64,000 nucleotides of DNA, taken from positions 80,035,305 through 80,099,304 of the forward strand of contig NC_092087.1 in NCBI RefSeq assembly GCF_045679555.1, read 5' to 3'. The DNA comes from Salvelinus alpinus (Eukaryota; Chordata; Actinopteri; Salmoniformes; Salmonidae). This document shows positions 1 through 64,000 of the stretch, piece after piece (the stretch's first letter is position 1; the number at the start of each line of letters is the position of its first letter). The notes below the pieces were generated by a model that saw nothing but the letters and a program-made list of their open reading frames with translations, ran no database searches and was not told the origin of the DNA. The position numbers were made by a program, and so were the translations under genes.

Positions 1-1019
1 GAAATCACGCACAGAACGAGCAGTATGGCTGGTGGCATTGTTATGCTGGAGGGTCATGTCAGGATGAGCCTGCAGGAAGGGTGGCACATGAGGGAGGAGG
101 ATGTCTTCCCTGTAACGCACAGCGTTGAGATTGCCTGCAATGACAACAAGCTCAGTCCGATGATGCTGTGACACACCGCCCCAGACAATTACGGACCATC
201 CACCTCCAAATCGATCCCCCTCCAGAGTACAGGCCTCGGTGTAACGCTCATTCCTTCGATGATAAACACGAATCCGACTATCACCCCTGGAGAGACAAAA
301 CCGCGACTCGTCAGTGAAGAGCACTTTTTGTCAGTCCTGTCTGGTCCAGCAACGGTGGGTTTGTGTCCATAGGCGACGTTGTTGCCGGTGATGTCTGGTG
401 AGAACCTGCCTTACAACAGGCCTACAAGCCCTCAGTCCAGCCTCTCTCAGGCTATTGCAGACAGTCTGAGCACTGATGGAGGGATTGTGCGTTCCTGGTG
501 TAACTCGGGCAGTTGTTGTTGCCATCCTGTACCTGTCCCACAGGTGTGATGTTCGGATGTACCGATCCTGTGCAGGTGTTGTTACACGTGGTCTGCCACT
601 GCGAGGACAATCAGTTGTCCGTCCTGTCTCCCTGTAGCGCTGTCTTAGGCGTCTCACAGTACGGACGTTGCAATTTATTTCCCTGGCCACATCTGCAGTC
701 CTCATGCCTCCTTGCAGCATGTTGAAGGAAAGTTCACGCAGATGAGCAGGGACCCTGGGCATCTTTCTTTTGGGGTTTTTCAGAGTCAGTTGAAAGGTCT
801 CTTTAGTGTCCTAAGTTTTCATAACTGTGACCTTAATTGCCTATCGTTTGTAAGCTGTTAGTGTCTTAACGACTGTTCCACAGGTGCATGCTCATTAGTT
901 GTTTATGGTTCATTGAACAAACATGGGAAACAGTGTTTAAACCCTTTACAATGAAGATCTGTGAAGTTATTTGGATTTTTACGAATTATCTTTGAAAGAC
1001 AGGATTTTTGCTGAGTTTA
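1..1019 (-). mobile_element. Tc1-like element, left part cut by window edge
   Basis: Same element as 59217-60683 but truncated by the window start. The minus strand at 762-331 encodes the N-terminal 143 residues of a Tc1 transposase with the paired helix-turn-helix DNA-binding region, ending at a TGA where the family has tryptophan; the catalytic part continues toward position 1 in the same frame. The right terminal repeat ends in 'gctgagtttata' near 1019. Confidence 0.9.
331..762 (-). pseudogene. Tc1 transposase N-terminal part (copy A)
   Basis: A 143-codon minus-strand frame starts MPRVPAHLRELSF and holds two helix-turn-helix motifs, the second near 'NVRTVRRLRQRYRETGR', which is the transposase DNA-binding (paired-like) region. 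It stops at a TGA; the frame continues past the stop with 'QKVLFTDESRF', the first catalytic aspartate region, so this is one nonsense codon in an otherwise open transposase. Identical to 60423-59992. Confidence 0.85.
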
Positions 1020-1120
1020 TATATATGTGTGTGTGTATATAAACTCAGCAAAAAAATATACGTCCCTTTTTCAGGACCCTGTCTTTCAAAGATAATTCGT
1101 AAAAATCCAAATAACTTCAC
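961..1120. repeat. Long inverted repeat at Tc1 junction (copy A)
   Basis: About 43 bases at 961-1003 are the exact reverse complement of about 1078-1120, and a further stretch, 'tttttgctgagtttatata', is mirrored around a short TG-rich centre at about 1021-1037. The right arm has some 23 extra bases. It looks like the terminal repeat of one Tc1 element abutting, head to head, a ~115 bp non-autonomous relative ending near 1155 with the same 'tttgctgagttta' terminus. Repeated at 60622-60780. Confidence 0.85.
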
Positions 1121-1167
1121 AGTTTCCCATGCTGTTTTTTTTGCTGAGTTTATATCTATACTGTATA

Positions 1168-5655: not shown

Positions 5656-5666
5656 ATATAACCATA

Positions 5667-5921: not shown

Positions 5922-5923
5922 TT

Positions 5924-20149: not shown

Positions 20150-20692
20150 TGTGCTCAGATTTTTACAACTGCGACCTGGTCAAGATAAAGCATAGCAGTG
20201 CGACAAAAACAACAACACAGAGTTACACATAAACAAACGTACAGTCAATAACACAACAGAGAAGAAAAATAGAAAGATCTATGTACAGTGTGTGCAAATG
20301 TAGAAGGTCAGAGAGGTCGGCAATAAATAGGCCATAGAGGCAAAAATAATTACAATTTTGCATTAATACTGGAGTGATAGATGTGCAGATGATGATGTGC
20401 AAGTAGAGATACTGGGGTGCAAAAGAGCAAGAGGGTAAGTAATAATATGGGGATGAGGTAGTCGGGTGTGCTATTTACAGATTGGCTGTGTGCAGGTATA
20501 ATGATCGGTGAGCTGCTCTGACAGGTGATGCTTAAAGTTAGCGAGGGAGATATAAGACTGCAGCTTCAGAGATTTTTGCAATTCGTTCCAGTCATTGGCA
20601 GCAGAGAACTGGAAGGAAAGGCGGCCAAAAGAAATGTTGGCTTTGGGGATGACCAGTGAAATATACCTGCTGGAGCGTGTGCTATGGGTGGG
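20150..20692. repeat. Interspersed salmonid repeat, class unclear
   Basis: Contains 'caattcgttccagtcattgg', 'gcagagaactggaaggaaag' and 'gaccagtgaaatatacctgc', words I recognise as a high-copy salmonid repeat. I cannot name its class. It is cut by the gap at 20693. Confidence 0.5.
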
Positions 20693-20792
20693 NNNNNNNN
20701 NNNNNNNNNNNNNNNNNNNNNNNNNNNNNNNNNNNNNNNNNNNNNNNNNNNNNNNNNNNNNNNNNNNNNNNNNNNNNNNNNNNNNNNNNNNN
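20693..20792. other. Assembly gap, 100 N
   Basis: Exactly 100 undetermined bases, the conventional size for a gap of unknown length. The left flank is one repeat family and the right flank another (Tss 3' end), so an unknown amount of sequence, including most of a Tss element and possibly CEP20 3' exons, may be missing. Confidence 0.99.
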
Positions 20793-21118
20793 ATTCACCC
20801 AATTTATTATGGGAAGCTTGTGGAAAGCTACCTGGAACGTTTGACCCAAGTTAAACAATTTAAAGGTAATGCTACCAAATACTAATTGAGTGTATGTAAA
20901 CTTCTGACCCACTGGGAATGTGAGGAAATAAATAAAAGCTGAAATAAATCCTTCTCTACTATTATTCTGACATTATACATTCTTAAAATAAAGCGGTGAT
21001 CCTAACTAACTAAGACAGGGAATTTTTTACTAGGATTAAATGTGGGGACGTTGTGAAAAAAACTGAGTTTAAATGTACTTGGGGCAGAGGTGTATGTAAA
21101 CTTCTGACTTAAACTGTA
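20793..21118 (+). mobile_element. Tss element 3' end
   Basis: Begins inside the transposase C-terminus ('IHPIYYGKLVESYLERLTQV', then 'KQFKGNATKY' and stop at ~20885) and ends with the terminal repeat 'cttctgacttaaactgta' at 21118. The rest of the element lies in or beyond the N gap. Confidence 0.9.
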
Positions 21119-21235
21119 TGTCTTTACTAGGTCTAATGGTATGTACAGTTTTCGATCGGGATAGGGATCAAGTGTTTCGGTCTGGAATCAGTTTCCTGTG
21201 GCCTTTTATGAATCATTTCTTGATGATAAACTTAC

Positions 21236-21319
21236 ACAGATCTGGAACTGGGGTCCTCCACCACTTTCAGCTCATTCGCCATGAACTGTCTGTCAAGTGG
21301 TTCTTCGGTTGACCTGATT
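21236..21319 (-). CDS. cep20: CEP20 (FOPNL) exon 3, one base short
   Basis: The acceptor 'tttttcag' at 21320 and donor GTAAGT at 21235-21230 bound an 84 nt exon. It starts ESGQ in phase with exon 2, but the conserved 'EEPLDRQFMANELKVVEDPS' is readable only after shifting one base at 'CAACCGAAGAA' (about 21306-21310). Entry phase 1 and exit phase 2 require 85 nt, so one base is missing. It follows the LisH motif in the protein. Later exons are not found in this window. Confidence 0.85.
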
Positions 21320-21449
21320 CTGAAAAACATTGATTTGATAAGGTCATAAAATCCAAGTTGTAATTGAATAACGGTGAACCTACCAATGGCACTTATATTC
21401 CGTTCTGAAATTGATTGTCATATGGTTGAATTGAATGCATAATATTCAC

Positions 21450-21647
21450 CTGCTGTCAACACAGACGCTGTGTATCGATACTTGTTGAATTCCAGGTACT
21501 CGCGGATGAGCTCGTTGATTAGAAGGTTGTCGTGCGACAGCGCAGGACGCGGCTCGCTCTGATCATCGAGCGCATTGAACACCTCAGCTCTGATCCGAGC
21601 TTTCAGTTGACCCAACACACCTCGAGACTCCAGGCTCTCTCTCAGAG
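21450..21647 (-). CDS. cep20: CEP20 (FOPNL) exon 2, LisH region
   Basis: This 198 nt exon, between acceptor 'tctctcccag' and donor GTGAAT, encodes 'ALRESLESRGVLGQLKARIR' and on through 'NALDDQSEPRP' and 'LINELIREYLEFNKYRYTAS'. That is the LisH dimerisation motif and flanking region of CEP20/FOPNL, a ~170-residue centriolar satellite and basal-body protein related to FOP that is needed for ciliogenesis. Identity to the mammalian protein is obvious over this exon, and the frame is clean. It leaves phase 1. Confidence 0.95.
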
Positions 21648-21893
21648 CTGGGAGAGAAGATAAGTTGTTGAAAATGGTATCATAAAAACCTCTGCAACTT
21701 GTGGGGACATATTGATAACGTACACTTTTAAGGTGTGTTGTTCTGTAGGATAGCAGGCAAACTTTGATAGCTAGCTAACGTTACCTACTGTCGTCTTACA
21801 CTGTGCGTTGCACGAACTAGGAAACAGTTGCAATTCGCTTCCGTTTAATAAATGTAATATAGACTTTAAAGTGAAAGAAAGGACAATGCTTAC

Positions 21894-21921
21894 CGCATTT
21901 CAGTTCCGTTAAGGTCGCCAT
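21894..21921 (-). CDS. cep20: CEP20 (FOPNL) exon 1, start codon
   Basis: The ATG at 21921 begins MATLTELKC, followed by donor GTAAG; the 28 nt join exon 2 in phase to give MATLTELKCALRESLESRG, matching the family N-terminus MAT.(A/T)ELK. The gene runs leftward; the ABCC gene ends ~2.3 kb upstream on the same strand. Confidence 0.92.
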
Positions 21922-22273
21922 TGCAACAGGTATAAACAAATGACGTTCGTATCCCTCACCGAGGTCAAAGGGGAAACTTAGCTGCACAAGTTAACTTTTG
22001 CTCCCACCTAGTGGTCTAAATGGGTTACTTGCCTGGGCATGACCAAATCGTTTTCCATTAGTTCCCACAGCGACAAAGTCAAAATGGTCTGTGTCGTAAA
22101 CATTTATGAAAACAAAAATGAGCTTTTTGTTCTTAATATAAGGTCAGGTATAGGCATAATGTTAGCAGTGTGATTAAGGTTAGGTTTAAAATCATATTTT
22201 AAGTAGAGAGTTTATGACTTTGGCTGTGGTGACTAGTGCCTTTACTGTAAGCAATTATCCCTAATGTCTGCAT
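21922..22273. other. CEP20 upstream region
   Basis: Should hold the CEP20 5' UTR and promoter. No TATA box stands out within 60 bp of the start codon. Confidence 0.4.
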
Positions 22274-22411
22274 GCAGGAGGTTGGTAGCAACTTAATTGG
22301 GGAGGACAGGCTCGTGGTAAAGGCTGGAGTGGAGTTGGAATGATATCAAACACATTCCATTTGCTCTGTTCTGGCCATTGTTATAAGCTGTCCTCCCCTC
22401 AGCAGCCTCCT
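22274..22411. mobile_element. Salmonid hairpin MITE
   Basis: 'gcaggaggttggtagcaact' to 'cagcagcctcctgtggtc', with the same arms as 5488-5655 and an inner deletion around 'gatatcaaacacattccatt'. Confidence 0.8.
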
Positions 22412-23962
22412 GTGGTCTGCACACCCTGTCAATGACAGGCTTTGGAAAATGTGATCCCATTTATATTACAGTCATTACATTACCCAACTGCCTGCAGTCA
22501 TGCTTGACTCATACTTATATAAGGCATAGAGGCATAATTGTATTGTTTCACAGATGAGACTCACAAAAACATTATTTTCAAAACAGTTTTACTATTTCCA
22601 GCATAAACGTCACAGTAAAATGTTCAATCAAAAAATTAACAGATTGAATACAAAAAGTATAAATATAATACAATCTCTTAGAATTTGAAGGCAACTTACA
22701 TGTTCATTATATCACATGATATTTGTAGTTTCTTCTAAGCATATTGTCTAAACCAGTAAGACAAAAATATTAAGATCTTTTGACTTCTTTTGGAAAACTC
22801 CATGTTATAGATATAAACAGGAAGGAATGTCTATTTACAGTCAGTCATAACTGGAACCAGAGGAATAATAACACTAACATTGAATGGTATGTGATGAGAG
22901 TCTGTTACCTCAATATGTCACCCATAGCTTTGAGAATTAGGTGGTCTGTGCGTGCACGTGTGTCACACCCATAGCTTTGAGAATTAGGGTGTGTGTGTTC
23001 ATGCACGCGTGTCTGTGTGTAGGTGGAACGACGAAGTGGAGAAACTTTTTTTTTAACACATTTTGTCCATTGTTTTGAAAAGGCGTTCTCTCATACCTGT
23101 GGACTCCGTCACCACTGTAACAGTTGAACGTCCAGGTTTTTAGGCCTACATACCCGACCATACAGATTCTATTGACCGTTTTGTGTTTACTAAGACTGAA
23201 ATATACAAATACCGCAGAACAGTTGGACGCTAGGCTAGCTAAGCACCTTGGCTCGCTGATGTTTTGTTCTTGACCAGACTCATAAAACACTGAAATGGCT
23301 GGGTAGGAATCAGACTGAGTGCATCTGAAATGGCACCCTATTGCCTATATAGTACAAAACCTAAGAAAGTGCACTATATTCTGTGGAATAAGACTGCATT
23401 TTAGATTGATGACTGTGAAAAGCTTTGTGTTTTCTGGGTTTTACAGGGTCAGCCCTTTAAGGCTAGTGGTCGGTCAGAGAATATTGCTCCACTCTCTAGA
23501 CTTACCCTGTGGTTGGATGGTATGAGAATAGATATGAATTCATTATCAACTTTTTTTCTGTCTGATGACATGATAACACGGGGTCCTGTTGGAGGAAGAA
23601 CCAAATGTCAGTTACCATCACTGATATGAACAAAATAGTCGGATTTGGTTCCTAAGATTCAACTCAACATCAAAGGTACCCAGGTGTTCTTCAAAAAGAT
23701 GCTTCATAAAATGTAGTAGATCTACAAAAATAATTTGGTTCACATTCAGAGACTGAACCAAAGTCCTTTGGATTTTGCACTCAGTCTGACTTTCATCTCC
23801 TTAAGTTTCATTGGCACAGCCTATATACAATATTTAAAATGTTTGCCTAGCAACAACCCATCTGCGTCCAATAATAGCTTCATAAATCACAGTCTTTGAG
23901 ATCGGGGCTTGATGTCTCTTTCCCCTTCCGAGCACCAGTTTGAGTGTGCGTAGGTTCATGTC
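22412..23962. other. Spacer between ABCC and CEP20 with a MITE pair
   Basis: Mostly unremarkable AT-rich sequence. A 22 bp segment around 'cacccatagctttgagaatt' is repeated at 22919 and 22967. A hairpin MITE lies at 23325-23407 ('tgaaatggcaccctattgcc' and an inverted 'gactgcattttaga'). No exon was found. Confidence 0.5.
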
Positions 23963-23968
23963 TTTATT
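23963..23968 (-). promoter_or_regulatory. Candidate poly(A) signal of the ABCC gene
   Basis: AATAAA on the minus strand about 236 nt downstream of the ABCC stop codon. Position and orientation fit the gene's 3' UTR; nothing else supports it. Confidence 0.45.
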
Positions 23969-24203
23969 GTGACCAGAGAGCACATACTGTTCACTAAAAT
24001 CGTCATCAGCTTCGCTTCTTGGGTCATCTTTGGTTTACATCGACTTCAGTTCCGGGTCGTTCTAAAAGCATTGCTCTCAGAGGAAGAGTTTGAACTGCCT
24101 GGATCGTGGAGCTTGGAATGGCCGATTCTACATGTGTTGGTTTGGAAGGCCAGGGCCATCAGAATTTCCCCCTGGCCAGAGCCACCTCGGAGCTGGGTAG
24201 CTT

Positions 24204-24312
24204 TTAGACTAGCCCAGCCTCTCGGCACATACGGTAGAACTGTCCCCTGTTTGAGATGAGGTTGGTTGGGGAGTCCATCTCCGAGATGTGGCCTTTGTCC
24301 ATCACTATCACT
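24204..24312 (-). CDS. abcc6: ABCC exon 31 (C-terminus, stop)
   Basis: Acceptor 'cttccacag' at 24313; in phase with exon 30 it encodes 'RVIVMDKGHISEMDSP' to 'FYRMCREAGLV', then TAA at 24206-24204. Last part of NBD2. Intact. Confidence 0.93.
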
Positions 24313-24478
24313 CTGTGGAAGGAAGAGAGAGAAGTGTCAAATTCTGTGACTGAACCATTGATTTTGAGATGTTGCGACATCATTTGACTGGGGCGCAGTA
24401 GGTGTAGGAAAGGAGTTGATATGCACATCCCAAACTAAGAAAACTGTCGCTGGGCAAAAAGTATAGCAGAGAGCCTTA

Positions 24479-25667
<1,189 letters not shown>

Positions 25668-25866
25668 CTAAGAATGACAAATTAGACCCTTCGTTAGATA
25701 GGATCAAATAGTTTTTACTGGTCAGGTAACATGGCCGGGAAAATACCTCTGGTCCTAAGTATGATACAACTGTAAAAGGAGTATGTTGCTTCAGGACAAA
25801 ACTGAATATCATAAACAAAGCATTATGGGTACTGTAGAAGGCTACCTCATTCTAGATTGTACTGAC

Positions 25867-26015
25867 CTTTTCTCTTTCCTGGATTTTCAGGGTGATGCCT
25901 TTCAGTGCCCAGTCCAGGCCCTTGCGGTACTGTAGTCCATAGTCTTGCGAACTCAATAGTGCCAGTCTCATGGCCAGGCCAGAGGCAGGGAACTGCCCTC
26001 CACGGTCCACCCAGC
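25867..26015 (-). CDS. abcc6: ABCC exon 27 (NBD2 start), frameshifted
   Basis: 149 nt against 147 expected. Its second half encodes 'DYGLQYRKGLDWALKGIT' and 'LKIQEREK' (the A-loop Tyr region of NBD2) cleanly. The first half, 'WTVEGSSLPLAWP', is separated from it by indels near 25955-25945 that create stops. Confidence 0.88.
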
Positions 26016-26114
26016 CTGGTGAGTATAGAGAACAGTTAAGATTAAATGGATCTGTGTCTCTATATCTATGTTCTTTGTCCCTCTATGTCTTTTGATCTAA
26101 ACAGGTTAGTTGCA

Positions 26115-26285
26115 CAACACTTCAGATTACTGTAAACCTTGCTAGATAATGGTTAGTTTGGCAAGACTTCAGATACTGTAAACCTGGCTAAAAGTAACGG
26201 TTAGTTCTTGGCAACACTTCAGTTACTGTAAACCTGGCTAGAAAAGGGTTAGTTTGACAACACTTCAGTTACTGTAAACCTTAAA
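26115..26285. repeat. Short imperfect tandem repeat in intron 26
   Basis: About four copies of 'cacttcag(a)tactgtaaac' followed by 'ctggctagaa' and 'ggttagt', spaced 45-65 bp. Confidence 0.75.
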
Positions 26286-26431
26286 AAGAGAATGAATTGC
26301 AACCACTGAAACAGTAACTGCCTACATAACTTACAATGTTAATGTCACTGCTCATGTCATGCATATTACTTATATAACAGCTCATTTCATTGGGGGGTAT
26401 TAGCTAACAGAGAAGGTATGCAGATGCTTAC

Positions 26432-26532
26432 CTCTTTTGCAGTGTCAGCATACTCCTTCACCTCTCAACAGACACAATGTTGTTCTCTACGTCTGTCCAT
26501 GATCTCACAATCCAGCTCAGAATGCCAGTCAC
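26432..26532 (-). CDS. abcc6: ABCC exon 26, one base deleted, immediate stop
   Basis: 101 nt against 102. 'VTGILSWIVRSWTDVENNIV' then 'SVER' is clean; GAGAGGTGAAGG lacks one G of the expected GAGAGGGTGAAGG, giving TGA at once. After correction it reads 'VKEYADTAKE'. Confidence 0.93.
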
Positions 26533-26805
26533 CTGCACAACACAATTGCGAGGTTCAAATTAAAACAGAGCCCTCGTCGTTTGAGGTAATATGCAGTTAG
26601 GATTGTGCAGCACGTAGTTAGGCTGTTCTTCTGGGGATTTTTTCAGTTTGGTAAACCACACACTTTCTGATGCAATAAAAGGGATTGCCCGTAATGGGTT
26701 TTGTGTGATTGTAGCCGGGTACAAAATATTAAAATTACTATTCTTCTTTGTTGCTAAATGAGTTGTTTACCTATAATGACTACGGTATAGGGTGTAATAT
26801 CTTAC

Positions 26806-26935
26806 CTGGAGGGAGTGTGACACAGCCAAACCAACAATGTCCCAGGGCTCAGGGTGCTCTTTCCCCATCACTGAGAGAATAGCTGCGGCTAAAACCACAC
26901 CGTTACCGACAAACTCAAGATTAACTGCCAACCAC
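26806..26935 (-). CDS. abcc6: ABCC exon 25 (TMD2)
   Basis: 130 nt (family 127, same phase). 'WLAVNLEFVGNGVVLAAAIL' to 'GLAVSHSLQ', a TMD2 membrane segment. The middle ('KEHPEPWD') looks like a short out-of-frame stretch restored after about eight codons, but the frame stays open throughout. Confidence 0.9.
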
Positions 26936-27535
26936 CTGCGGATATCAGGAGATGAAAGCCTGATTAGATGTGGAGAAAGTTTTGGCCTCCATCACTCATC
27001 ATGGAGGTGTTTTGATTGTGTCAAATCACCAGTTGGCAACCCATCCCTTACGGGATTAATTGAACACATAAACAAACATTACAATGATTCACAGTGATAA
27101 TTCTTCAGGTGTTCTGCACAGTACGCACCGCATAAAGAATGAAAAAAAAATCAATACAGTAATAGAGATAAGGTTATCCAAGCAATAATAATAACCCTAG
27201 AGTAGTGAAGAAAGAAATGCAGATAAATAAATACAGAAACATTTCACGGAAGGCATTTAAAACCAGTCTGTCACAAAGAGAAGATTGAAGTGTGAGAGAT
27301 ATAGGCCTACACACAATCAATATGCATACGTGCACTTTGCTATAGGCCTTTGTCTAGAGCTTGAGATACTTTGTATAATTTATTTATAGGTCACCCTTTT
27401 TTCTTTTATTCCAGGCTTTATTTTTGAAAAAATCTGAAAACAGAACCATCTACACCAGTCACCACATCAACCGGATATTTTATTTTACCAGAGCATGTAC
27501 TGCAAGGTGAATTTGTTGTTTCTATCAAACCTAAC

Positions 27536-27745
27536 CTGGTGGCCACAAAGCGGGGGAAGTAGGAGGTCTGGTTGAAGTCGACCCTCTTGTTAGCCTGCAC
27601 AATGAAGCGGTGCTGTTCTCCGAGAGGCCCGTATGACACTGGCTCCCTGCACCGTCTCGTTGGAGTGGGTGTGGGAGTGGGCGAAAGCGGCTCCACCGAC
27701 TCCAGCCTCCGCAGCTCGAGCAGGATGTGGCCACGGTCAGCAGCT
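27536..27745 (-). CDS. abcc6: ABCC exon 24 (TMD2), frameshifted
   Basis: The 3' part is clean: 'GEQHRFIVQANKRVDFNQTS' to 'YFPRFVATR', donor GTTAGG at 27535. Upstream, 'VATSC', 'LRRLESV' and 'NETVQGASVIRA' are readable only in shifting frames. The acceptor at 27746 ('ttgcaag') is uncertain. Confidence 0.82.
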
Positions 27746-28017
27746 CTTGCAACGACAAGGGAAAGATCAAACATGACGTTTTAATGAACCGAAAGTACCA
27801 AGAGGTGGTGTATGTGTGTGGAAGTGGGTTTTCCACTCCAGCATTTCTAGTGGATTTACAGTATGTAGCCGTGCCATTACTTAGCACTACTATGTTAGCA
27901 TGTGGGATAAATCACCACGCAAAACCAACAACTTGCAAAATCTGCTATTTTGGTTTTCAAGAGTCTAAAACTATTATTCTTCCACAAAACGGCGTCTCAG
28001 TCGGTTAAGAAACATAC

Positions 28018-28334
28018 CTGAACGAAGGCGTAGAGAATGGCGAGGGGCAGGATGGACGACCGCCGCACAAAGGTGTAGCCAGCATGACGATGATACAGAC
28101 TTCCATCAGCTTGAAGAGGGTAGCCCAGCATCATCTTGAGGCCGTCGGGGATGATGCAGTCGATAGCGTCGATCTCCTTGGCAAAACGGTCTAGGAGGTT
28201 CCCACTGGGGGTGGTCTCAAAGAAAGACATGGGGGAGTGGGAGAACGTTCTTCAGGAGGTCCATGTGGAGGTGCCGGGACGGGATGCTGCCTCCGACCGG
28301 AAATGGCCACCGCGGTGCCGAAGAATGACGATTC
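28018..28334 (-). CDS. abcc6: ABCC exon 23 (TMD2), several indels
   Basis: 317 nt (family 311). Contains 'MSFFETTPSGNLLDRFAKEI' and 'DAIDCIIPDGLKMMLGY' in one frame and 'LPLAILYAFVQ' at the end. Extra bases near 28287 (GTC to GGTC), 28232 (C run) and 28122 (ACCC), with matching losses, put the flanking parts out of frame. Confidence 0.88.
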
Positions 28335-28671
28335 CTGAAATATAAAATAAACTGCTATCAGGATACCTGCTGTTTGGCAACTGTGGTTTATATCAGATAC
28401 TGAAACTCTCAATCTCTCAGAAGGACTCTTGGAGGACTAGTACAATGGAGGGTTATAACAGATCCAAATAAACAAACATTAGTGGGATTAAAGATGGAAT
28501 CCGCATTCGGGGAAACAGCGCCTCTGTCTGCCCCAGCACCTTTTGTTGTTATTGTTTTTGTTTTATGAACGGAACAGAGTTGAGGTGTGTCAAGCACATG
28601 GTAAAACAAAATGCAGTACATATTCTGCTGTTCAGTCAGATATTGCATGCAATAATGTCTGAGGGGAAAAA

Positions 28672-29768
28672 ATTTAAGGATTCTAGCTAAACTTGTAGCA
28701 TATGCTGTTTCAGCATCAAGGATTCTAGCTAAACTGTAGTCTATGCTGTTTCACCATCAAGGATTCTAGCTAAACTATAGTCAATGCTGTTTCACCATTA
28801 AGGATTCTAGCTAAACTGTAGTATATATTAGCCATCAAGGATTTAGCTAAAATATCACTGTCTGTTTCACCATCAAGGATTCTAGCTAAACTGTAGTCTT
28901 TGCTGTTTCACCATTTAAGGATTCTAGCTAAACTGTAGTCTATGCTGTTTTCACCATTAAGGATTCTAGCTAAACTAGTCTATGCTGTTTCACCATTAAG
29001 GATTCTAGCTAAACTAGTCTATGCTGTTTCACCATCAAGGATTCTAGCTAAACTGTAGTCAATGCTGTTTCACCATTAAGGATTCTAGCTAAACTGTAGT
29101 CTATGCTGTTTCACCATCAAGGATTCTAGCTAAACTATAGTCAATGCTGTTTCACCATTAAGGATTCTAGCTAAACTGTCAGTCTATGCTGTTTCACCAT
29201 CAAGGATTCTAGCTAAACTGTAGTCTATGCTGTTTCACCATCAAGGATTCTAGCTAAACTGTAGTCTTTGCTGTTTCACCATTTAAGGATTCTAGCTAAA
29301 CTGTAGTCTATGCTGTTTTCACCATTAAGGATTCTAGCTAAACTAGTCTATGCTGTCTCACCATCAAGGATTCTAGCTAAACTGTAGTCTATGCTGTTTC
29401 ACCATTAAGGATTCTAGCTAAACTGTAGTCAATGCTGTTTTCACCATTAAGGATTCTAGCTAAACTAGTCTATGCTGTTTCACCATCAAGGATTCTAGCT
29501 AAACTGTAGTCTATGCTGTTTCACCATTAATGATTCTAGCTAAACTGTAGTCTATGCTGTTTCACCAGTCAAGGATTCTCGCTGAACTGTAGTCAATGCT
29601 GTTTCACCATTAAGGATTCTGGCTCAACTCTCGTCTATGCTGTTTCACCAGTCAAGGATTGTGGCTGAACTGTAGTCTATGCTGTTTCACCATCAAGGAT
29701 TCTAGCTAAACTGTAGTCTATGCAGTTTCACCATTAAGGATTCTAGCTAAACTGTAGTCTATGCTGTT
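28672..29768 (-). repeat. 41 bp minisatellite, ~27 units, intron 22
   Basis: Units of about 41 bp built on 'aaggattctagctaaactgt' plus 'agtctatgctgtttcaccat' repeat for 1.1 kb with small length variants. A variant block ('gtagtctttgctgtttcacc' then 'atttaagg') occurs at 28893 and again 368 bp later at 29261, so part of the array grew by copying about nine units. The array ends ~80 bp from exon 22. Confidence 0.95.
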
Positions 29769-29846
29769 TCTTTTCATCCAAGTCGAAAAGGACCTACTTT
29801 TATCTTTGGTCTCTTTTCCCAGTAAAATGCCACATTCACCACTGAC

Positions 29847-30054
29847 CTTGTGCGAAGCCCAGAGCCCCGTAGACGGCCAGCTTCATGTCCGTGTCGACCT
29901 GGGTGCCGTTGACGATGGGTTCGTCGGCCCACAGGCTCAGCCAGTAGTTGTAGGCCAGCGAGGCCCCCTGCTGGAAGGCGTACAGGAAGACGATGGGGAT
30001 GATGAAGGCCATGCCGATGGTCTTGAAGTACTCCATGTACATCTCCAGCCTCAC
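29847..30054 (-). CDS. abcc6: ABCC exon 22 (TMD2 start)
   Basis: 208 nt, clean. 'VRLEMYMEYFKTIGMAFIIP' opens TMD2, followed by 'NYWLSLWADEPIVNGTQ' with a glycosylation sequon, to 'LAVYGALGFAQ'. Acceptor 'taccacag', donor GTCAGT. Confidence 0.95.
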
Positions 30055-30276
30055 CTGTGGTAAAAAAGACAGGCAATCAGACTTGCTAGAAATTGACAAA
30101 CACCTGTTAATATGTGAAAGGTGAGAAAGAAGCTCCGTTTGTTTTAAAGAAACAATGTACTGGAGCTAAGCTCAATGGGTACAACCTGTATGGCTATGGA
30201 GACTTTATCATTTAGTTTGAACCATTTTTAACCATAAGAGGTGCAGTCAAAAATCAGCTCTTCTTCTTGACTTCAC

Positions 30277-30394
30277 CCTCCCAGTGCGTGCCTTGTCAAC
30301 CTCCATCAGCTTTCCCAAGTCCTCAGGAACCTGCTCCTCTTCTATCTCAGACATGGGCTCCATACCCTGCAGGTTAGTACTGTTGGTGTCTCCC
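30277..30394 (-). CDS. abcc6: ABCC exon 21 (linker)
   Basis: 118 nt, clean. Encodes the acidic inter-domain linker 'GMEPMSEIEEEQVPEDLGKL', then 'MEVDKARTGR', with donor GTGAAG. Phase 2 to 0. Confidence 0.9.
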
Positions 30395-30556
30395 CTAGAG
30401 AACATATAGGGGTTTCAGTTAGGTTTTTATTTTTAAGATGCTTGGCATGCTCAATGTGACGTTTTCTCCAATAGACGTTTATTATACCATTGAATCAATT
30501 AGAACCATGATGTTATCAGGAAAATATTATGTAATGTGCGCTGGAGATTCACTTAC

Positions 30557-30638
30557 CCAATGAGCTGCTCTTGGGATAGATCTCTTGAGAATGGCATGAA
30601 GTCTGTAACACTGAGCGGTGAGCTGGCCCTCCTGGCAC
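30557..30638 (-). CDS. abcc6: ABCC exon 20 (linker)
   Basis: 82 nt, clean. 'ARRASSPLSVTDFMPFSRDL' then 'SQEQLIG', a Ser/Arg-rich regulatory linker of the kind that is phosphorylated in ABCC proteins. Acceptor 'gctgcag', donor GTAAGT. Confidence 0.88.
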
Positions 30639-30757
30639 CTGCAGCAATGGTACAAAATGTTCATTTACATGATGAATAGCTTGTTGGTGAGAAGCAAATG
30701 TTTGTTCATCAATGGCGATAATGACTTCTCCCAAATTTCATTACAATGAGGTCCTAC

Positions 30758-30954
30758 CTCTCTGTGCGGCGGTCTCTGTGACACTCTCTTTACGGTCGTT
30801 GCTGGCGAAGGTATGGATGAAGTCTGCAAAGGCCCCGTGGCGGCTCAGCAACTCCTGGTAGGAGCCACTCTCTGTGATCTCCCCTGTCCACCAGGACCAG
30901 GATGAGGTCCGCCTGGGGCAGGAAGCTGATCCCATGGGTTACTAGAACACAAGT
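30758..30954 (-). CDS. abcc6: ABCC exon 19 (NBD1 end), acceptor lost, frameshift
   Basis: Expected start 'T(R)[18 protein letters not shown]' is preceded by 'taccata', lacking the AG an acceptor needs; one deleted G would explain it. Two bases are missing at GGGGAGATCAC near 30877, shifting '[20 protein letters not shown]' out of frame. Donor GTAGGA. Confidence 0.85.
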
Positions 30955-31169
30955 TATGGTAGCATAAACCACAGGAGCAGGATTAATCAAAATAGACGAT
31001 CAGCGGAACTAGCCTAATACAAATGGTGGATTTGATTTGAAGAATCTGCAAAATCATGCTTTTCCATCTCAAAACCACACAAGGAACAGTCGGTTACGTG
31101 TAAGCTTCTAAATAATTTGTCAGGGTGCACTCATTGTTAATAGAGATCATATTTTGGTAATAGTTTTAC

Positions 31170-31340
<171 letters not shown>

Positions 31341-31438
31341 TCAGGGAGAACAATCAAGAAGAAGACATGACTCAGAATTTTCAGAACATTCTAAAAGACC
31401 ATGAAATGAGGTGGAATTCTAGAAGATTATTTTCACAC

Positions 31439-31613: not shown

Positions 31614-31770
31614 CTGGAGACAGAAAAATAAATAGAGGAACATTAGCATTGAAGAAGAAGAACATTGAGTGTAAACCAGACCCTCACAGACAGATTGTAA
31701 CACTGAAACTGAAAACCTTAGATTCAATATATTCAACTTCTATTCTCCTATTTTAAGATAACTTTTTAAC

Positions 31771-31896: not shown

Positions 31897-31975
31897 CTGT
31901 AAACAGAGGAGTGGAGTTGAGTTTCTTAACTTAACCTTCAGAACGTGTGAAAATGGGAATACTGTTATGATTTAC

Positions 31976-32050: not shown

Positions 32051-32684
32051 CTGAGAAGAAAATAGAAAAACAGAGGGAGAGAGAAAGAGAGGAGGAAGGA
32101 ACCATTGAAAAAAGACACTAATATTTCCTCTCTGCATACAGGCATAACAGTTTATGCACCCGTTTATGCACCCAACAACTACCCAACGTTAAAAATATAA
32201 TGTCCTTTTAAGTGACATGTCAAATTGCAGAGTCTACATAATTACAAGAGGTCTAAAATTACAGTGTGTTCTTTTTACGAGCTGTCTTAAGGAAGTGTTG
32301 ACGGATTACAGGCGAAGAAAACTGCTTTTATTCTGGAATCATACGTCTGACTGTCTAGAAGTAATTTACATTCAACCACTGGATGGCAACATCCTATCAT
32401 TACTCAGTCTCCCCAGTCGACCTCGATCACAGGAAGTGACAACATAACATTACCATTAAGGGTTCTGGATAGAATGCCATGGATGTAAACAACAAATCTT
32501 CGGAGGCTTGTTTTTATTGGTTACGACAGGCAGAGGCAGACCACAGTTCCCACTGGGTAAGAGTTGCTATGAGTGTTTTTGTTGATTAATTGCTATAGGC
32601 TGATACAAAGCCCTTTGCTCCACTTGGAACTAAAAGTTATAGGTCAAGTATGTCAACATACATGGCACCAGTAGGTGTTCTTAC

Positions 32685-32772
32685 CAGTACTCAAAGGGGC
32701 CTTGGCTACATTGTCGTCTTTCAGCTCCTCAGAACACAGGTATTTCCCTAAGCGCTTCAGCGAGACAATGGC
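32685..32772 (-). CDS. abcc6: ABCC exon 14
   Basis: 88 nt, standard length, clean: 'AIVSLKRLGKYLCSEELKDD' then 'NVAKAPLST'. Joins TMD1 to NBD1. Acceptor 'aattttag', donor GTAAGA. Confidence 0.93.
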
Positions 32773-32862
32773 CTAAAATTCAAAGAATTTTTTTTTTTAG
32801 AACAGCAGCACAAAGCATTATACATTGGTTTGGTCTGTTGAATACTGGACATTGTATTTCAC

Positions 32863-33009
32863 CTGCATGGTAGTGCTCATGGCAAAGGGTAGCTGGCTCA
32901 GTGGGGTCTTCAGAATGTTGATGAGAGCCATGGAGACAAAGACCTTCTGGGCATCTAGGACGTTCTTGTCATCAATCAGCACATAGACACCAAACATGGA
33001 AAAGGCAAT
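32863..33009 (-). CDS. abcc6: ABCC exon 13 (TMD1)
   Basis: 147 nt, standard length, clean: 'IAFSMFGVYVLIDDKNVLDA', 'FVSMALINILKTPLSQLPFA', to 'MSTTMQ'. Acceptor after a run of C, donor GTGAAA. Confidence 0.95.
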
Positions 33010-33310
33010 CTGGGGGGGGAAACAAATAAGCATGATTGAGAACAGTGACCTGAAGCTGTAACTGTAACCATCACACACAGAACTCAGTGATGATACATTT
33101 CTACTGTGAGGCTTGAAGCTATGGATAGAAAAGAGTAGACCTGTATAGCCGAGCGAACACTGCAGCACGGGTATTAATTACCATGTCGTTTCCAATCAAT
33201 TTTCGGTGTTCTGGCTTGTTAGGATGTTCAACAGAGGGTTATATTTATACAGATTTTGAATTTTACTTATTTTTCCCCCTATTTACTTATTTAATTAAAT
33301 GTTTTGAGAG

Positions 33311-33404
<94 letters not shown>

Positions 33405-33419
33405 TGTGTGTGTGTGTAT
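33311..33419. repeat. (GT)n microsatellite, ~105 bp, intron 12
   Basis: Almost uninterrupted GT dinucleotides (one GGT break at ~33397) followed by TATATATA. Minus-strand reading is CA in the direction of ABCC transcription. Confidence 0.98.
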
Positions 33420-33844
33420 ATATATAAATATGTAAGTATGTATCTGTTTAAGGCATTCCAAGTGGATGGGGTTGGGGGGCAAGATATGCTTCAATTTTTA
33501 TATATTGTTTTACTATCCTTAAAATGTGCATATTGCATAAGATACCTTAGATAACTTTGGTGGTTCCATCCAGAATCCCTTCCCTAGTTGTAACTTTATT
33601 ATGTTGGCCCTGGATAGAGCTCTACTGAGGTTCATTTGAACATGGTAGCATTTTGCTCTGGTCTAGGAGAGGTAGATGCAGCCTTCCAACAGGGGGAAGG
33701 CCAGCATAGGGGTCCAAGGTTTTCTCCTGGGTATTTTGTTGTTTTAGCTGTTTTTAATTTTCTTTATATTTAATTACTCTGACCTTTCAGAACACTGGCC
33801 ATGTGATTGTACTAACATTCATTTCTGATTACTGATTTCACATA

Positions 33845-36180
33845 CTCTAGGCTCCACATGCTTTATCAGCTGGAACGTGAAAGGAATTAACCAGGTGGTC
33901 AAGCGTGGAGTGTATGCTAATCTTATGTCCTAAGTCTGGACATTGTTTTCCTCCAAGAGACCCATCTACGGTCCAGCGACCTTGATAAACTAAAGAGAGG
34001 ATAGGTAGACCAAATATTTCACTCAAGTTGGTGCAAAGGCCAGAGGGGCAGCCATCCTTCTCAGAAAAGGCACCCCGTTTGTCTCCTCCAAAGTAATTTC
34101 AGATACTAATGGAAGATATATTATAGTAATGGGGAAGTGGCTCACACACAGGTTATTCTGGGTAACCTTTATGGTCCTAATTGGGATGACGCTAGCATCT
34201 TTCTCTGACCTTAACTTTTATCGCAACACTTCCTGACCTTAACACTCATCATTTGATATTGGGCGGAGTTCAATTGTGTAATGCATCCAAGTCTTCAGAT
34301 CCAGACCGAAGCCCAACAATGTAATTTCAAAATCAGATGCAGTAATCAACTCATTCTAGAATCCTATCATTTGTCTGATCCATGGAGGAGGAGCAATCCC
34401 ACTGCTAAACAGTACTTTCTCCAGTCCACAGTACTCCTTTTTTTCTACAGTCCACATACTCTAGGACTTTTCGGCTTCTTCCTGCTGGACAATAGAATTC
34501 TTCATTTTGTAACTAATAGCCAAAATCGCAGCATCGTTATCTCAGACCATAGCCCTGTCCTATCTCAGACCGTAGCCCTGTCCAGCTAGATATCCGCTTT
34601 CCGGACAGTACTGTGTCACAAAGCGCATGGAGACTTAACCCACTACTACTATCTTTTAGTGCCTTTAAGAAATACACATCAACTCACATTGATGTCTTTT
34701 TAGAGATCAACTGCACCCCTGATGTGTCTCACTCTACTGTGTGGGAGTCGTTAAAAGCAAATCTTAGAAGCCAAATGATTTCATACACAGTGTATGACAA
34801 CAAACAGCGCACCAAATGCTTATCGGAGCTATCTCAAACTGATTCTAGATGTGGACAACAGATGCCTCTTCTCCGACTCCTGAACTCTACTAAAGAGAGA
34901 CTGCTACACCAATCGAAAATCTGACAATCTTTCCATCAAACAAATCACTTTAGTAGCCTTAAACAAGCAAGCGGCTTCTCTCCATTAACATCTAATCATT
35001 TCTTCCCAACGTCACAGATTGACACGGCATTCCAGTTCTGGCATAGGAACGGTCTGGTGTTTTTTGTGACCCATTTGTTGATAACACCTTTGTCTCATTC
35101 GAATACTCTGAGTGTTGATCATCATTTTCCCAATACCCACTTTTTTAGATATCTGCAAGTTTTGCCCAAAAACATTTCCCTTAATTTCCACTCGAGCCCA
35201 CTAAGTGTCCAGTCGACAGGTGCTTAGATCTTAACCCGTATCTGAAGGGCAAAATCTCCAGGATCATACGACATAATACAGAACATAAATCCTCCTTCCT
35301 TGGCAAATACAAAATCTGCATGGACGCAAGACATAGGCTGGCGAGCTTCCTGATGATATATGGCAACAAAGTATTGAGCGTATCCACACATCATCATTTT
35401 GCATAAGGCATGGGCTTATTCAGTTAAAAGTTTTGCTCATTCTCCATTACCCAATTGACAGATTGGCAAAAATATACCCAAATGTTGACCCCAAGTGTTT
35501 GAGATGCCACCAGAGTCCAGCGACTGTGGGACACCTGTTTTGGTCATGCCAATCTTTGAGTGGCCTCTGGGACCCCATTTTTGAGGCATTCTCACATATG
35601 TGTAATACAACTGTTTACACATATGTACGCCACATTTTTGGGGGGCAGTGACCCCCAACCCGGTCACTGACATTTTTGGGTGCTTCCCCTAGACCAGAAT
35701 GCTACCACGCATAGCTGCTAGCTCGCCGCCTTGTCCTCTTTCACTGGAAGTCTGCAAAGCCGCCCTCCTTTATGCAGTGGGTTAAGGAGGTGATGTCATC
35801 TCTGCCTCTGGAGAAGGTTAGGTACACTGTGCATGGGTTCCAACAAAGTTCGACTTAGCCTGGTCCCCATTAATACAATACGTGGAGAGCCTGTCTTTTA
35901 CTTAGTGTAACTTGCGTATTTTGGTAAGCAGCCATGCTGTTCTAGTGCCCATTCTGCAAAAAATAAAATAAAAGGTGAACTTTTTCCCCTATTGTTTTTG
36001 TTTCTATTACTGTTTGTTTCTGTTTGTTTCTTTCCTATTGAATTTACTTTTATAGATGCCTTGGTGGGTGGGTGGGTGGGTGGGTGGTGGAGGGTGGTTT
36101 GGAGGGATGGATGGGAGAATGAGGGTTGGGGTTGTACTGTTTTTGTTGTTACATCTGAAAATATAAAGTTAAAAAAAAAG
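33845..36180 (+). mobile_element. L1-type LINE, decayed, antisense in intron 12
   Basis: Plus-strand pieces follow L1 ORF2 order: endonuclease start ('ISWNVKGINQVVKRGV' near 33868), 'QETHLRSSDLDKLK' near 33955, 'RGAAILLRKGTPFVSS' near 34046, 'DYFLLDNRIL'-like and 'IVISDHSPVLS' near 34480-34560, then C-terminal remains ('DPKCLRCHQSPATVGHLFWS' at ~35480, 'MQWVKEVMSSLPLEKVRYTV' at ~35774). Most of the reverse transcriptase is missing and all frames are broken. Confidence 0.8.
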
Positions 36181-36246
36181 TGAGCAATTAACTGTACTTG
36201 AAAGACCAAATAAATATTACTACTAGTTATATTGTATTGCACATAC

Positions 36247-36445
36247 CAGGAAAGTGGATGAGTTGAAGGAGGCGATGGAGATGGAGTAGAGGATTGGGAC
36301 TTCTCAGGGCCTTCAGTTCTTTCTCCCTGTATCCAGGACCTGCTCAGAAAGGCCTTCTCCCATGCATGAGACTTTAGAATCTTGATCCCGTTCAGATCGA
36401 TTCCATAGGCTTGATTCGCCCATCCATAAACTTCATCTGTACCTC
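36247..36445 (-). CDS. abcc6: ABCC exon 12 (TMD1), multiple indels
   Basis: 199 nt against 204. 'VQMKFMDGRIK' and 'NGIKILKSHAWEKAF' are recognisable; losses near 36398, 36354 and 36310-36295 shift the frame repeatedly and give TGA in ATCTGAACG. The end reads 'SISIASFNSSTFL' when shifted. Donor GTATGT. Confidence 0.88.
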
Positions 36446-36595
36446 CTAGGGAGAAGCATTCAAAGACGTGGTTAAATAGATAGTCGGCCCTTCTAAAAGA
36501 GGGAAGAGGACAGCAACACCACAAGAGAACAGCACGATAGAAAACCTATAGAAGTGTTGGTCCCCAGCATACCTGTCTGTCTTCTTCATCTCAAG

Positions 36596-36715
36596 ATGGC
36601 GCTGCAGTGGATAGTAGCCGTCTTACAGGCTCCTGACCAATTCTGCTATTTTGTGTGTTTTTTTGTTTGACGAAGCATGTGCCAAATAAAATGTGATTTA
36701 ATTGGATTTTATAGA
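36596..36715 (+). repeat. Interspersed repeat fragment, intron 11
   Basis: 'caagatggcgctgcagtgga' to 'caaataaaatgtgatttaat', a fragment with a LINE-like 3' end ('gtgccaaataaaatgtgatt'). Confidence 0.5.
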
Positions 36716-37236
36716 CATAGTTGTCAGTTACAGCTGCAAATACTTGTCAAGTAACAGCTAATGTTGAGCACTCTACAGAAGTATGTACTTGTTTAATTTA
36801 ATTCGAATTGTACTCTGTTACAGTATTGAACACAGTTCTTAACACTTAGCAGTTTTACGACGAGGAAACAACAAAGCGGCCAGGAAAGCGGTCAGTGACA
36901 TTCTACGACTGTAAGTTAGATTAAAACAGGCATTATTGACAAAACTGTCTGTTGTTTTTCCAAAAAACAAATGAAAAATATAGCCTTTTATAGCCCCTTT
37001 TCTGTGGTTGTTTTTCATAAGCATAACATGGTGGAGACATCCATCCAACCCGCACTCCCACACAGCTCTGCTTCGGCTATGTAAACCAGCTGTGGCATCC
37101 CTGACCAAACATGCAAAATCACATTCTGTTTCGGCTACTGCCTCGGGTCAAAGTAGCTGGAAAGGCTGTCTGGTCCCAGATATTTTTGCACTGAGGTCAA
37201 AGTGCATATGAATCTCCTCTTAGGACATGTCCGTAC

Positions 37237-37329
37237 CTGCAGTTTGCTCCTTTTCTTGGCGATGAATCCGTTGAGTGGGAAGATGAGGATGACGGTGGCA
37301 ATTCCGGCTAGCGCAGATGGGCCTAGGTG
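37237..37329 (-). CDS. abcc6: ABCC exon 11 (TMD1)
   Basis: 93 nt, standard length, clean: 'HLGPSALAGIATVILIFPLN' then 'GFIAKKRSKLQ', a TMD1 helix and intracellular coupling loop. Donor GTACGG. Confidence 0.94.
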
Positions 37330-37456
37330 CTGTAAAATGGCATCGTTTTACACAAGTCATCAAAAGCAATGTTTGTTATAAATGAGTACCAAAGAAAACA
37401 TATGTCCGTCATCAATGAGTACCAACAAAAACAGAAGTGACAGTGCCATACCATAC

Positions 37457-37618
37457 CTGCCAGAGGAAGAAGAGGCAGAGGGCGATCTCGATAGGAGCCA
37501 GCCACACTGCGTTGAAGTAAACCACAAAGTCCATGAGCTTCTGAGTGTCGGCTGATACCAGGTTGACGATCTCCCCCACTGTGCACGTCCTCCTGGATGC
37601 ACTGTTGATCACCAAAGA
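37457..37618 (-). CDS. abcc6: ABCC exon 10 (TMD1)
   Basis: 162 nt, standard length, clean: 'SLVINSASRRTCTVGEIVNL' (conserved coupling helix), 'VSADTQKLMDFVVYFNAVWL', then 'APIEIALCLFFLWQ'. Donor GTATGG. Confidence 0.95.
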
Positions 37619-37907
37619 CTAGAGGAAAAACAGAACAACCAAGTTAAACCTCCAGTAAAATGAGTACTATGTAACACTTGGTTTCAAGGTTTTTTAACAT
37701 TCATAACTTCTTTTTCCAACTTAAATAAACCCTAACTTGACAATTAACATATTTATTTTTCAATGTTTTTTTCTTGTTCCTTGGGAAAATAATATGTTAA
37801 TTGTCGAGGTATAGTTTATTTAATTTGAAATTCACTGCCATTAAGAGCCAATGTTTACAACGTGACGCCCAGTCACCCACTGTCTACTGGTTGGCACGAC
37901 GACGTAC

Positions 37908-38084
37908 CTTTCTGTAGACCAGTCCCATCACGGCTGTCTTCACTCTCATGCCCACGGTGAAGCAGGTGTACATGTACTGATGGTTGAACAGGGACTGGAG
38001 ACAGGACAACAGGAACATCAGGGTAGCGTAGAAGTAACCCTTCCACAGAGGGGCGTCTTCTTCGTTCATGAGCCCAGAAGAAGA
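37908..38084 (-). CDS. abcc6: ABCC exon 9 (TMD1), one base deleted
   Basis: 177 nt against 178. 'LWKGYFYATLMFLLSCLQSL', 'FNHQYMYTCFTVGMRVKTAV' and 'MGLVYRK' are clean. The start lacks one base at CTGGGCTCATGAAC (expected GGC TTC ATG), so entry from exon 8 gives TGA. Confidence 0.93.
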
Positions 38085-38967
38085 CTGTTGGAGAGGGGAT
38101 AAGGGTGAAAGAGAGAACATGGGAATATCATACAGTACTTCCTGTGGATACGTTCTGCTTCATGTTTCTGGAGACTTTTCAGCATACTCAACTCAACAGT
38201 CTTATTCACACTATAAAACATAAGCCTATACACTGAACATGGACACTGTGCCACTGCCAATGCAGTGCATTTAATGGAGTCATAAGCACAGACAAGTTAC
38301 TGTTCTCTGTCAGCTTTGTGTACCCCTGTCATGTTCCTTCACTTTCACTGCTTTGCCATGCAGCCCTATGCGGACTATGATCATTAGTGTGGCCGCAGGG
38401 CCTGCTGGTCGACACAAAGCCGTCTCTAGTTGCACAGGACAGCGTGCTCCTCTTGTGGCTGGGCTGGCCTCAACACTTGGCTAAGTGGCTCTCTTATTGT
38501 GGTCCACCAGAGCAACCTCAGCCTTTCTGCCGTTTGCAGCCTTCTTCACTCTCTCTTTCCTTCCTTTCTTTATTTCTTTCCTCCCTTAAGCTAAGCTAAT
38601 GTCCTTGACTCTCCATGTTGGGGCAGAAGACTGTGGTCTCTGACTCCTTTCTCTTAGCTGTAATTAACACTTCCACCAAGCCATGGTTGTTCAACAACAA
38701 CAACAAGGTTCCTGTCTAGACTGGCATTGGGTGCCAGAGATGGGGTAAAGCATGGCAGGTCCAGTATTAAGGTTGCCAAATTGACATTTTAGTATGTATA
38801 TCAATGTCAAGGGCATTGGAAATAGACGTGGAATCTGTCTGACTTGCAAGGGATTATTGTGTCAAGTGCTGCCAGTTTACGATGGCTTTGTTTACGATGT
38901 GATGCCATGGATTTTTGGAGACTAGTCTCCTGTGTAGAATTAACGTCAAACCCTTAGCCATTTTTAC

Positions 38968-60780: not shown

Positions 60781-60827
60781 AGTTTCCCATGCTGTTTTTT
60801 TTGCTGAGTTTATATCTATACTGTATA

Positions 60828-62443
60828 CAGTTGAAGTCAAAAGTTTACATACACTTAGGTTGGAGTCATTAAAACTCGTTTTCAACCACTCCATGTCTTG
60901 TTAACAAACTATGGTTTTGGCAAGTCGGTTAGGACATCTACTTTGTGCATAACACAAGTCATTTTTCAAACAATTGTTTACAGACAGATTATTTCACTTA
61001 TAATTCACTGTATCACAATTCCAGTCAGAAGTTTACATGCACTAAGTTGACTGTGCCTTTAAACAGCTTGGAAATTTCCAGAAAATTATGTCATGGCATT
61101 GGAAGCTTCTGATAGGCTAATTTACATGATTTGAGTCAATTGGAGGTGTACCTGTGGATGTATTTCAATGCCTAACTTCAAACTCAGTGCCTCTTTGCTT
61201 GACATCATGGAAAGATCAAAATAAATCAGCAAAGACCTCAGAAAAAAGAATTGTAGACCTCCACAAGTCTGGTTCATCCTTGGGAGCAATTTCCAAACAA
61301 CTAACGTACCACGTTCATCTGTACAAACGTTAGTACGCAAGTATAAACACCACAGGACCACACAGCCGTCATACCGCTCAGGAAGGAGACGCGTTCTGTC
61401 TCCTAGAGATTAACGTACTTTGGTGCGAAAAGTGCAAATCAATCCCAAAACAACAGCAAACGACCTTGTGAAGATGCTGGAGGAAACAGGTACAAAATTA
61501 TCTATATCCACACTAAAACGAGTCCTAAATCGACATAACCTGAAAGGCTGCTCAGCAAGGAAGAAGCCACTGCTCCAAACTGCCATAAAAAAGCCAGACT
61601 ACGGTTTGCAACTTCACATGGGGACAAAGATCGTACTTTTTGGAGAAATGTCCTCTGGTCTGATGAAACAAAAATAGAACTGTTTGGCCATAATGACCAT
61701 TGTTATGTTTGGAGGAAAAAGGGGGAGGCTAGCAAGCCGAAGAACACCATCCCAAACGTGAAGCACGGGGTGGCAGCATCATGTTGTCGGGGTGCTTTGT
61801 TGCAGGAGGGACTGGTACACTTCACAAAATAGATAGCATCATGAGGATGGAAAATTATGTGGATATATTGAAGCAACATCTCAAGACATCAGTCAGGAAG
61901 TTATAGCTTGGTCACAAGTGGGTCTTCCAAATGGACAATGACCCCAAGCATGCTTCCGAAGTTGTGGCAAAATGGCTTAAGGACAACAAAGTCAAGGTAT
62001 TGGAGTGGCCATCACAAAGCCCTAACCTCAATCCTATAGAAAATTTGTGGGCAGAACTAAAAAAGCGTGTGTGAGCAAGGAGGCCTACAAACCTGACTCA
62101 GTTACACCAGCTCTGTCAGGAGGAATGGGACAAAATTCACCCAACTTATTGTGGGAAGCTTGTGGAAGGCTACCCAAACCGTTTGACCCAAGTTAAACAA
62201 TTTAAAGGCAATGCTACCAAATACTAATTGAGTGTATGTAAACTTCTGACCCACTGGGAATGTGATGAAATAAATAAATAATTCTCTCTACTATTATTCT
62301 GACATTTCACATTCTTAAAATAAAGTGGTGATCCTAACTGACCTAAGTCAGTTAATTTTTGCTAGTATTAAATGTCAGGAATTGTGAAAAACTGAGTTTA
62401 AATGTATTTGGCTAAGGTGTATGTAAACTTCCGACTTCAACCC
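60828..62443 (+). mobile_element. Tss / Sleeping Beauty-type element (copy B)
   Basis: Same element as 1168-2783, with no difference noticed, including both terminal repeats. Confidence 0.95.
61207..62227 (+). pseudogene. Tss transposase pseudogene (copy B)
   Basis: Same broken frame as 1547-2567, with the same early stop and indels, showing the duplication is younger than the element's decay. Confidence 0.9.
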
Positions 62444-64000
62444 TATATATACACACACTGTGTTTCTGGGAACGTTTATTTGTAGATTGCAGTGAGGTTC
62501 TGAGAACCTTTTACTCTGGTTCCTTGAAAGTTTTATGAACACTCTGAGAATGGAAATTATTGGTTATTTGGAGGTTTTTTAATAACTTCCTTACAACTTT
62601 TAATAACAAAGCAAAACATTTGTTTACTGCAAGCACAGATAGCAATTCAATTCCTTAGGCATTAATCATGAAACACATTTATTTTTTTATTGTGACACGG
62701 CATCAGTGAGATTTGACCCTATGATCTTCTGGTTTCTATCCATGGAAGTAGTCCACTGTTCCACTAGAAGGGAGCTAGCATGCCATAGTTTTTTAGACAT
62801 ACAAAAATGTTCATTTTAGTCTGTTGAAACAGACCCCATTTCAAAGGAAACAAGTTATCATTAAGATCAGGTGTGGCCTATTACTGGGCACGGCCAACAC
62901 ATCTGTACACACTTAACAGAGGATAGAGAGAGTTTTGTTGATGCTGAGAACGGAATGTATATGTGTTTTTAAAAAACATTCTTGGAACGTTCTTACGTTT
63001 TCTTGTGTTTTTTTATGGAAAGTTTTATCAACGTTCTCTGAACAATTTGAGAATATAATCACGAAATAACCATAGGTCAACCACGCTCTCACCAAGCTCT
63101 AAGACACATATGGTTGTCTGAAGTTTTTATGTGCTATCTGGGTATAGTGTAGTTTAATCAGTGTGACTAGAGCCAACGTACCATTAACTCTGACAGGACC
63201 ATCAAGCAAAGAGAGACAAATACATGCTCAACCCTAAAGGTCAACCCTAAACCCTACCAGCCGTTTCACCCACCAGACAGACCAGTTCCAAACAAGAACT
63301 AAAAATGACCTGTCTCAGTTATGTCTCAGAGTTCCAGAGCTCTGAGTTCTGAGTGGAGTGTTTTTACTGGGAAGGACATGGTCCGAGTCAACCAATGGCA
63401 ATAACAAGGCACACACCACCACAACTAGGGGGGCCTCGAGAGAGAAACCATAACACCGGTCTGTCTGATGTTTATTTCACTATTCTCCACTCTGGTAATT
63501 GCTCAGAAGTGATACTTATGGAGAAGTTAGGCCTCAAAACCTGTGTTTGGCCCCATCTGTGATTAAAAACACACTCATCCGGGAGAATAAAACGTTTTAA
63601 AAAAGAATTGCGGCTAAGCTTGTTAGTCTTTACTAATCAACTCCAGACCAGACAAGGGAGTATGTTCTGGTAATTGAACAGTAGCAAAACAACGTCTGGT
63701 GCATTGGACAAATCGGGGAATCTATTTTCGGGGGGATTTGTGCAACATTAAGGAGCTCAATGTGTACCTGACTGCAACTTCACTTTACAAGTTCACATAT
63801 GCCGTTTGTGTCTCCCGGGCGGGCAATGTGAAATTGGTCTGTTGTCTGTCTGTAACTGCCCTCTATAAAAGTCCATTGGTCAACGTTAACAACGTTAACT
63901 CTCACCTCGGCCAATCATAGGTGCATATTAGAGTCCAGAGGAATGCTTAATGTTACAGTTGTGTCCTGAATAAACTCTATGGTCTGTACATTTGGCCTTA
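62444..64000. other. Non-repeat part of copy B, no gene recognised
   Basis: Same as 2784-4340. Nothing coding recognised. Confidence 0.6.

Follow-up and report, generated by a model that had tools for sequence, protein, structure and literature searches.

Homotype false duplications at contig boundaries, as the sections of PMC8081667 devoted to them describe, place a locus at the end of one contig and again at the start of the next. The contig ends dovetail, the copies stand in tandem with a gap between them, consensus quality differs between the copies, and the duplicated stretch, in the same sections, is often about as long as a read. In heterotype (haplotype) false duplications a gap likewise lies between the copies and divergent blocks stand beside near-identical ones, according to the portions of PMC8081667 and PMC9516828 that treat this type; gaps between copies are used there as one mark of false duplication (PMC9516828). 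The artefact proposed here is of an already published kind. It resembles the homotype case in all the respects listed above but, at 59.5 kb, exceeds a typical read length. In addition, its divergence may be partly allelic, and we judged the resemblance from sequence. With the heterotype case, as those portions of PMC8081667 and PMC9516828 present it, the locus shares the gap and the alternation of blocks, but haplotypes alone leave its richness in short indels and its one-sided frame breaks unexplained.

The window, that is, the whole stretch of 64,000 nucleotides analyzed here, is G000:C2:80035305-80099304 from an assembly of 2.37 Gb in 928 contigs. The first-pass annotation had noted a near-identical direct repeat of 4.34 kb at the two window ends, with a homopolymer A as the sole difference and the same transposase remnant in each copy. 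The repeat is real. By BLASTN, 1-4340 and 59662-64000 are 99.977% identical with 0 mismatches and one gap, which is one extra A in copy A, in the A run that starts at 1050 (60711 in copy B). The remnants at 331-810 and 59992-60471, both on the minus strand, translate identically and are Tc1-type.

1-4340, plus strand: copy A of the reported repeat, within U1, otherwise identical to copy B
59662-64000, plus strand: copy B of the reported repeat, within U2, one homopolymer A fewer than copy A
331-810, minus strand: Tc1-type transposase fragment in copy A, with the same translation as 59992-60471 (minus strand)

The coordinates of this repeat are correct but clipped by the window, and the guess that it extends farther was right. 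We added 100 kb on each side and compared the resulting 264 kb with itself. With the alignment so extended beyond both window edges, the repeat grew to 59.5 kb (window -38780..20692, U1, 59,473 nt, against window 20793..80351, U2, 59,559 nt), and both copies were found to abut a gap of 100 N that goes unmentioned in the first-pass annotation. The 59.66-kb spacing of the end copies is approximately one unit plus these 100 N. Chance or ordinary transposon similarity was considered and ruled out, as the transposon explains about 1 kb at 93-95% and the repeat spans 59.5 kb; among the best 40 of 15,869 candidates, other genomic copies of the Tc1-type transposon match a 2-kb query only over roughly its first 1 kb, at 93-95%.

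20693-20792, no strand: scaffold gap of exactly 100 N, the sole N run within the 264 kb, parting the two copies
1-20692, plus strand: end of the left contig (X), forming the last part of U1, which starts outside the window at -38780 (self-comparison)
20793-64000, plus strand: start of the right contig (Y), forming the first part of U2, whose end lies beyond the window at 80351 (self-comparison)

U1 stops exactly at the gap and U2 begins exactly at it, so copies A and B sit on different contigs with the gap between them. The two units align in a single HSP (1-59473 on 1-59559, plus strand, 98.76%), and neither contig end overhangs; the end of X dovetails in full, and in the same orientation, with the start of Y. 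The U1-U2 junction coincides with the gap, no assembled sequence runs across it, and the outer flanks of the repeat are unique within the 264 kb compared. The presence of copies at opposite window ends also raised the idea that the contigs were misordered and that Y belongs to the left of X. We rejected it, as the two contig ends dovetail as placed.

Two readings had been offered at first pass: either the unit was tandemly duplicated, or the assembly placed a single locus twice. The end-to-end repeat running from the gap and the uneven, largely error-like difference profile strongly favour the second and disfavour the first. We conclude that one locus has very probably been written twice: the overlapping contigs X and Y were set side by side with a gap and left unmerged, giving a false duplication, and we infer that the locus is single-copy in the animal. 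The artefact is favoured because the alignment runs end to end without overhang and both copies border the sole gap of the 264 kb, because the differences are very uneven and the indels short, because U2 exons are broken where U1 is in frame, and because a probe from the unit has two full-length places only (among the best 40 of 2,176 candidates). A real, recent tandem duplication of the 59.5-kb unit would also give two units in the same orientation that are 98.76% alike. It would have to combine a second ABCC1-like copy turned pseudogene, a core homogenised by gene conversion and a contig break falling exactly at the junction, and we consider it very improbable. It requires contigs that end exactly at both unit edges, and copies distinct enough to be assembled apart should have been joined by reads from the junction.

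The profile of differences along the unit bears on both readings. In a global alignment, U2 carries 413 mismatches, 165 insertions and 72 deletions relative to U1, and 207 of the 237 indels are of 1-2 bases. Divergence along the unit is not even: 15,641 nt without any difference between U1 and U2 (60711-76351; on the U1 side, window 1051-16691) stand beside blocks at 11-13 mismatches per kb.

20793-51000, plus strand: difference-rich start of contig Y, with 337 mismatches, 156 insertions and 67 deletions relative to U1
60711-64000, plus strand: in-window part of the difference-free stretch (global alignment of U1 and U2)

Within the difference-rich start of Y, the part at 40793-51000 holds 71 insertions and 2 deletions in Y. 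The insertion excess is weak at 20793-40793 (85 insertions, 65 deletions), where two 2-kb bins lean clearly to deletions, with 1 insertion to 11 deletions and 6 to 15. The following part, 51000-75000, has 8 mismatches and 7 indels, and the last, 75000-80352, has 68 mismatches (34 transitions, 34 transversions) and 7 indels. An evenly ageing duplication is unlike this profile, whereas overlapping contig ends of uneven consensus quality fit it. Gene conversion could in principle cause uneven divergence along a unit. To account for this one, however, a tandem duplication needs 15,641 identical bases on a unit that also holds 30 kb at 11 mismatches per kb. Neutral indels of animal genomes lean to deletions, and against this the duplication also needs 10 kb in which insertions outnumber deletions 71 to 2.

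Consensus error may not be the whole cause of the differences. Transitions exceed transversions in 20793-51000 (218 to 119), so some of the differences there are probably real variants; this excess and the non-uniform insertion bias are points against the reading that we prefer. A sub-case that overlaps with the artefact is one in which the contig ends represent the two parental haplotypes over part of their length (a heterotype false duplication) and little consensus error is involved. The transition excess and the near-identical blocks beside divergent ones both speak for it. It is nonetheless the less likely form of the artefact, though a possible one, given 223 indels against 337 mismatches in 20793-51000, the indels being mostly of 1-2 bases, the block where insertions number 71 and deletions 2, and the loss of frame that conserved genes show in one copy. 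From the one-sided frame breaks and the excess of short indels, consensus error would be needed beside haplotypes. A mixed haplotype and contig-boundary case is plausible, and is made likelier by the length of the overlap, 59.5 kb against the read-length boundary duplications that are typical.

The frame breaks were seen in the genes of the unit. The first-pass annotation had placed an ABCC gene and the start of CEP20 inside it, and exon matches agree. The CEP20 query was the human sequence, and the exon ranges are numbered on human CEP20 and MRP1.

21451-21648, minus strand: CEP20 exon, presumed human residues 10-75, with no difference between the copies
21212-21344, minus strand: stretch holding the next CEP20 exon; U1 is in frame here and U2 is frame-broken
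24207-48920, minus strand: ABCC1-like (MRP1-type) gene, U2 copy, with exon matches from presumed human residue 17 (at 48920) to the C-terminus (at 24207)

Among solved structures, the best match of the minus-strand ABCC gene is MRP1/ABCC1. In a PDB search with 2001-10000 of L015, from the left copy, one frame of three led to MRP1, and the other two gave no PDB match at the strict cut-off of 1e-60. Several ABCC1-like exons at 24207-48920 are frame-broken and are in frame in U1. Fifteen of the 22 CEP20 and ABCC1 exon stretches in U2, some of which overlap one another, have at least one indel relative to U1 inside them or no more than 3 bases away, and seven have none. Where frames were read in both copies, which covers only part of the ABCC1-like exons, U1 is intact and U2 is broken in the second CEP20 stretch, in an NBD1 exon and in a TMD2 exon. 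A 107-residue stretch of U1 aligns to MRP1 unbroken with 125 bits; the matching part of U2 reaches 34 bits, in one frame and against another MRP1 chain. When an N-terminal MRP1 query was used, the U1 match was longer or scored higher than its U2 counterpart in 7 of 11 cases; three pairs are equal over the same residues, and one differs only by running through an intron. As judged from these frame-breaking U2 indels and in-frame U1 exons, consensus quality is unequal between the copies. Breakage confined to the second copy, among the exons read in both, would also be expected of a decaying tandem copy, the reading that we regard as very improbable. A further CEP20 match is weak (E 0.005, 48% over 27 residues) and lies at window -40859..-40779, in the unique flank left of U1 only; X therefore continues CEP20, and Y starts inside it, a further point for the unmerged overlap.

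Under the preferred explanation, an unmerged contig overlap, X (ending at 20692) and Y (starting at 20793) would carry one shared 59.5-kb stretch with the CEP20 exons, the ABCC1-like gene and the sequence beyond. The scaffolder would have ordered and oriented both contigs correctly and left the overlap unmerged, writing a 100-N gap where a negative gap of approximately 59.5 kb belonged. Poor consensus at the start of Y, together with some real allelic differences, is the probable cause of the failure to merge. The true order would be left flank, one unit, right flank, and the sequence would shrink by about 59.5 kb if the overlap were merged. As it stands, an annotation of C2 could show an additional ABCC1-like gene, seemingly broken, and a truncated CEP20, and these might pass for a species-specific duplication and pseudogene. 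Were the tandem duplication true, it would be a fresh transporter duplication. The very young unit would comprise the ABCC1-like gene together with the front part of CEP20; the second transporter copy would have decayed already, and gene conversion would have homogenised a 15.6-kb core.

The distribution of the unit across the assembly was examined with one 2-kb probe (window 24000-26000). Among the best 40 of 2,176 candidates, it has full-length matches at two places only, both on C2 (100% and 98%); the other matches listed are at most about 206 nt long and include four places on C1. Neither a third copy nor an unplaced haplotig was found with this probe among those candidates.

A second Tc1-like element lies near the end of the left contig.

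16777-18398, minus strand: Tc1/Sleeping-Beauty-like element with terminal inverted repeats and a transposase ORF at 17180-18019 (minus strand)

The element contains 57 of the 75 differences to the right of U1 15300, and mismatches within it amount to 3.27%. The differences cluster as if reads from other copies of the element had entered the consensus, which also speaks for the artefact. In the left contig, 17180-18019 (minus strand) is an open stretch of 279 aa for a Sleeping-Beauty/Tc1-type transposase; its counterpart in the right contig departs from it at 26 of 280 positions and contains 2 stops, a count that may include the terminal one. A Pfam search of 4341-19340 on two of the six frames gave one transposase domain, below the curated cut-off.

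Other repeats were seen in the right contig. Long TG and CA dinucleotide arrays at 33312-33417 and 49920-50007 match each other in opposite orientation, and a 41-bp minisatellite of about 27 units (28676-29770) lies between ABCC1-like exon matches. The minisatellite region (window 28001-30400) gave no match at 1e-5 to the four loci on C1. These loci (L031-L034, within G000:C1:13998805-14451039) lie within about 450 kb in alternating orientation, and each is 87% like one ABCC NBD2 exon of the window. They may be genuine clustered genes or a further duplication made by the assembly. Compared as 3.2-kb loci, L031 matches L033 at 98.6%, and L032 matches L034 at 94.7-97.9% over long pieces.
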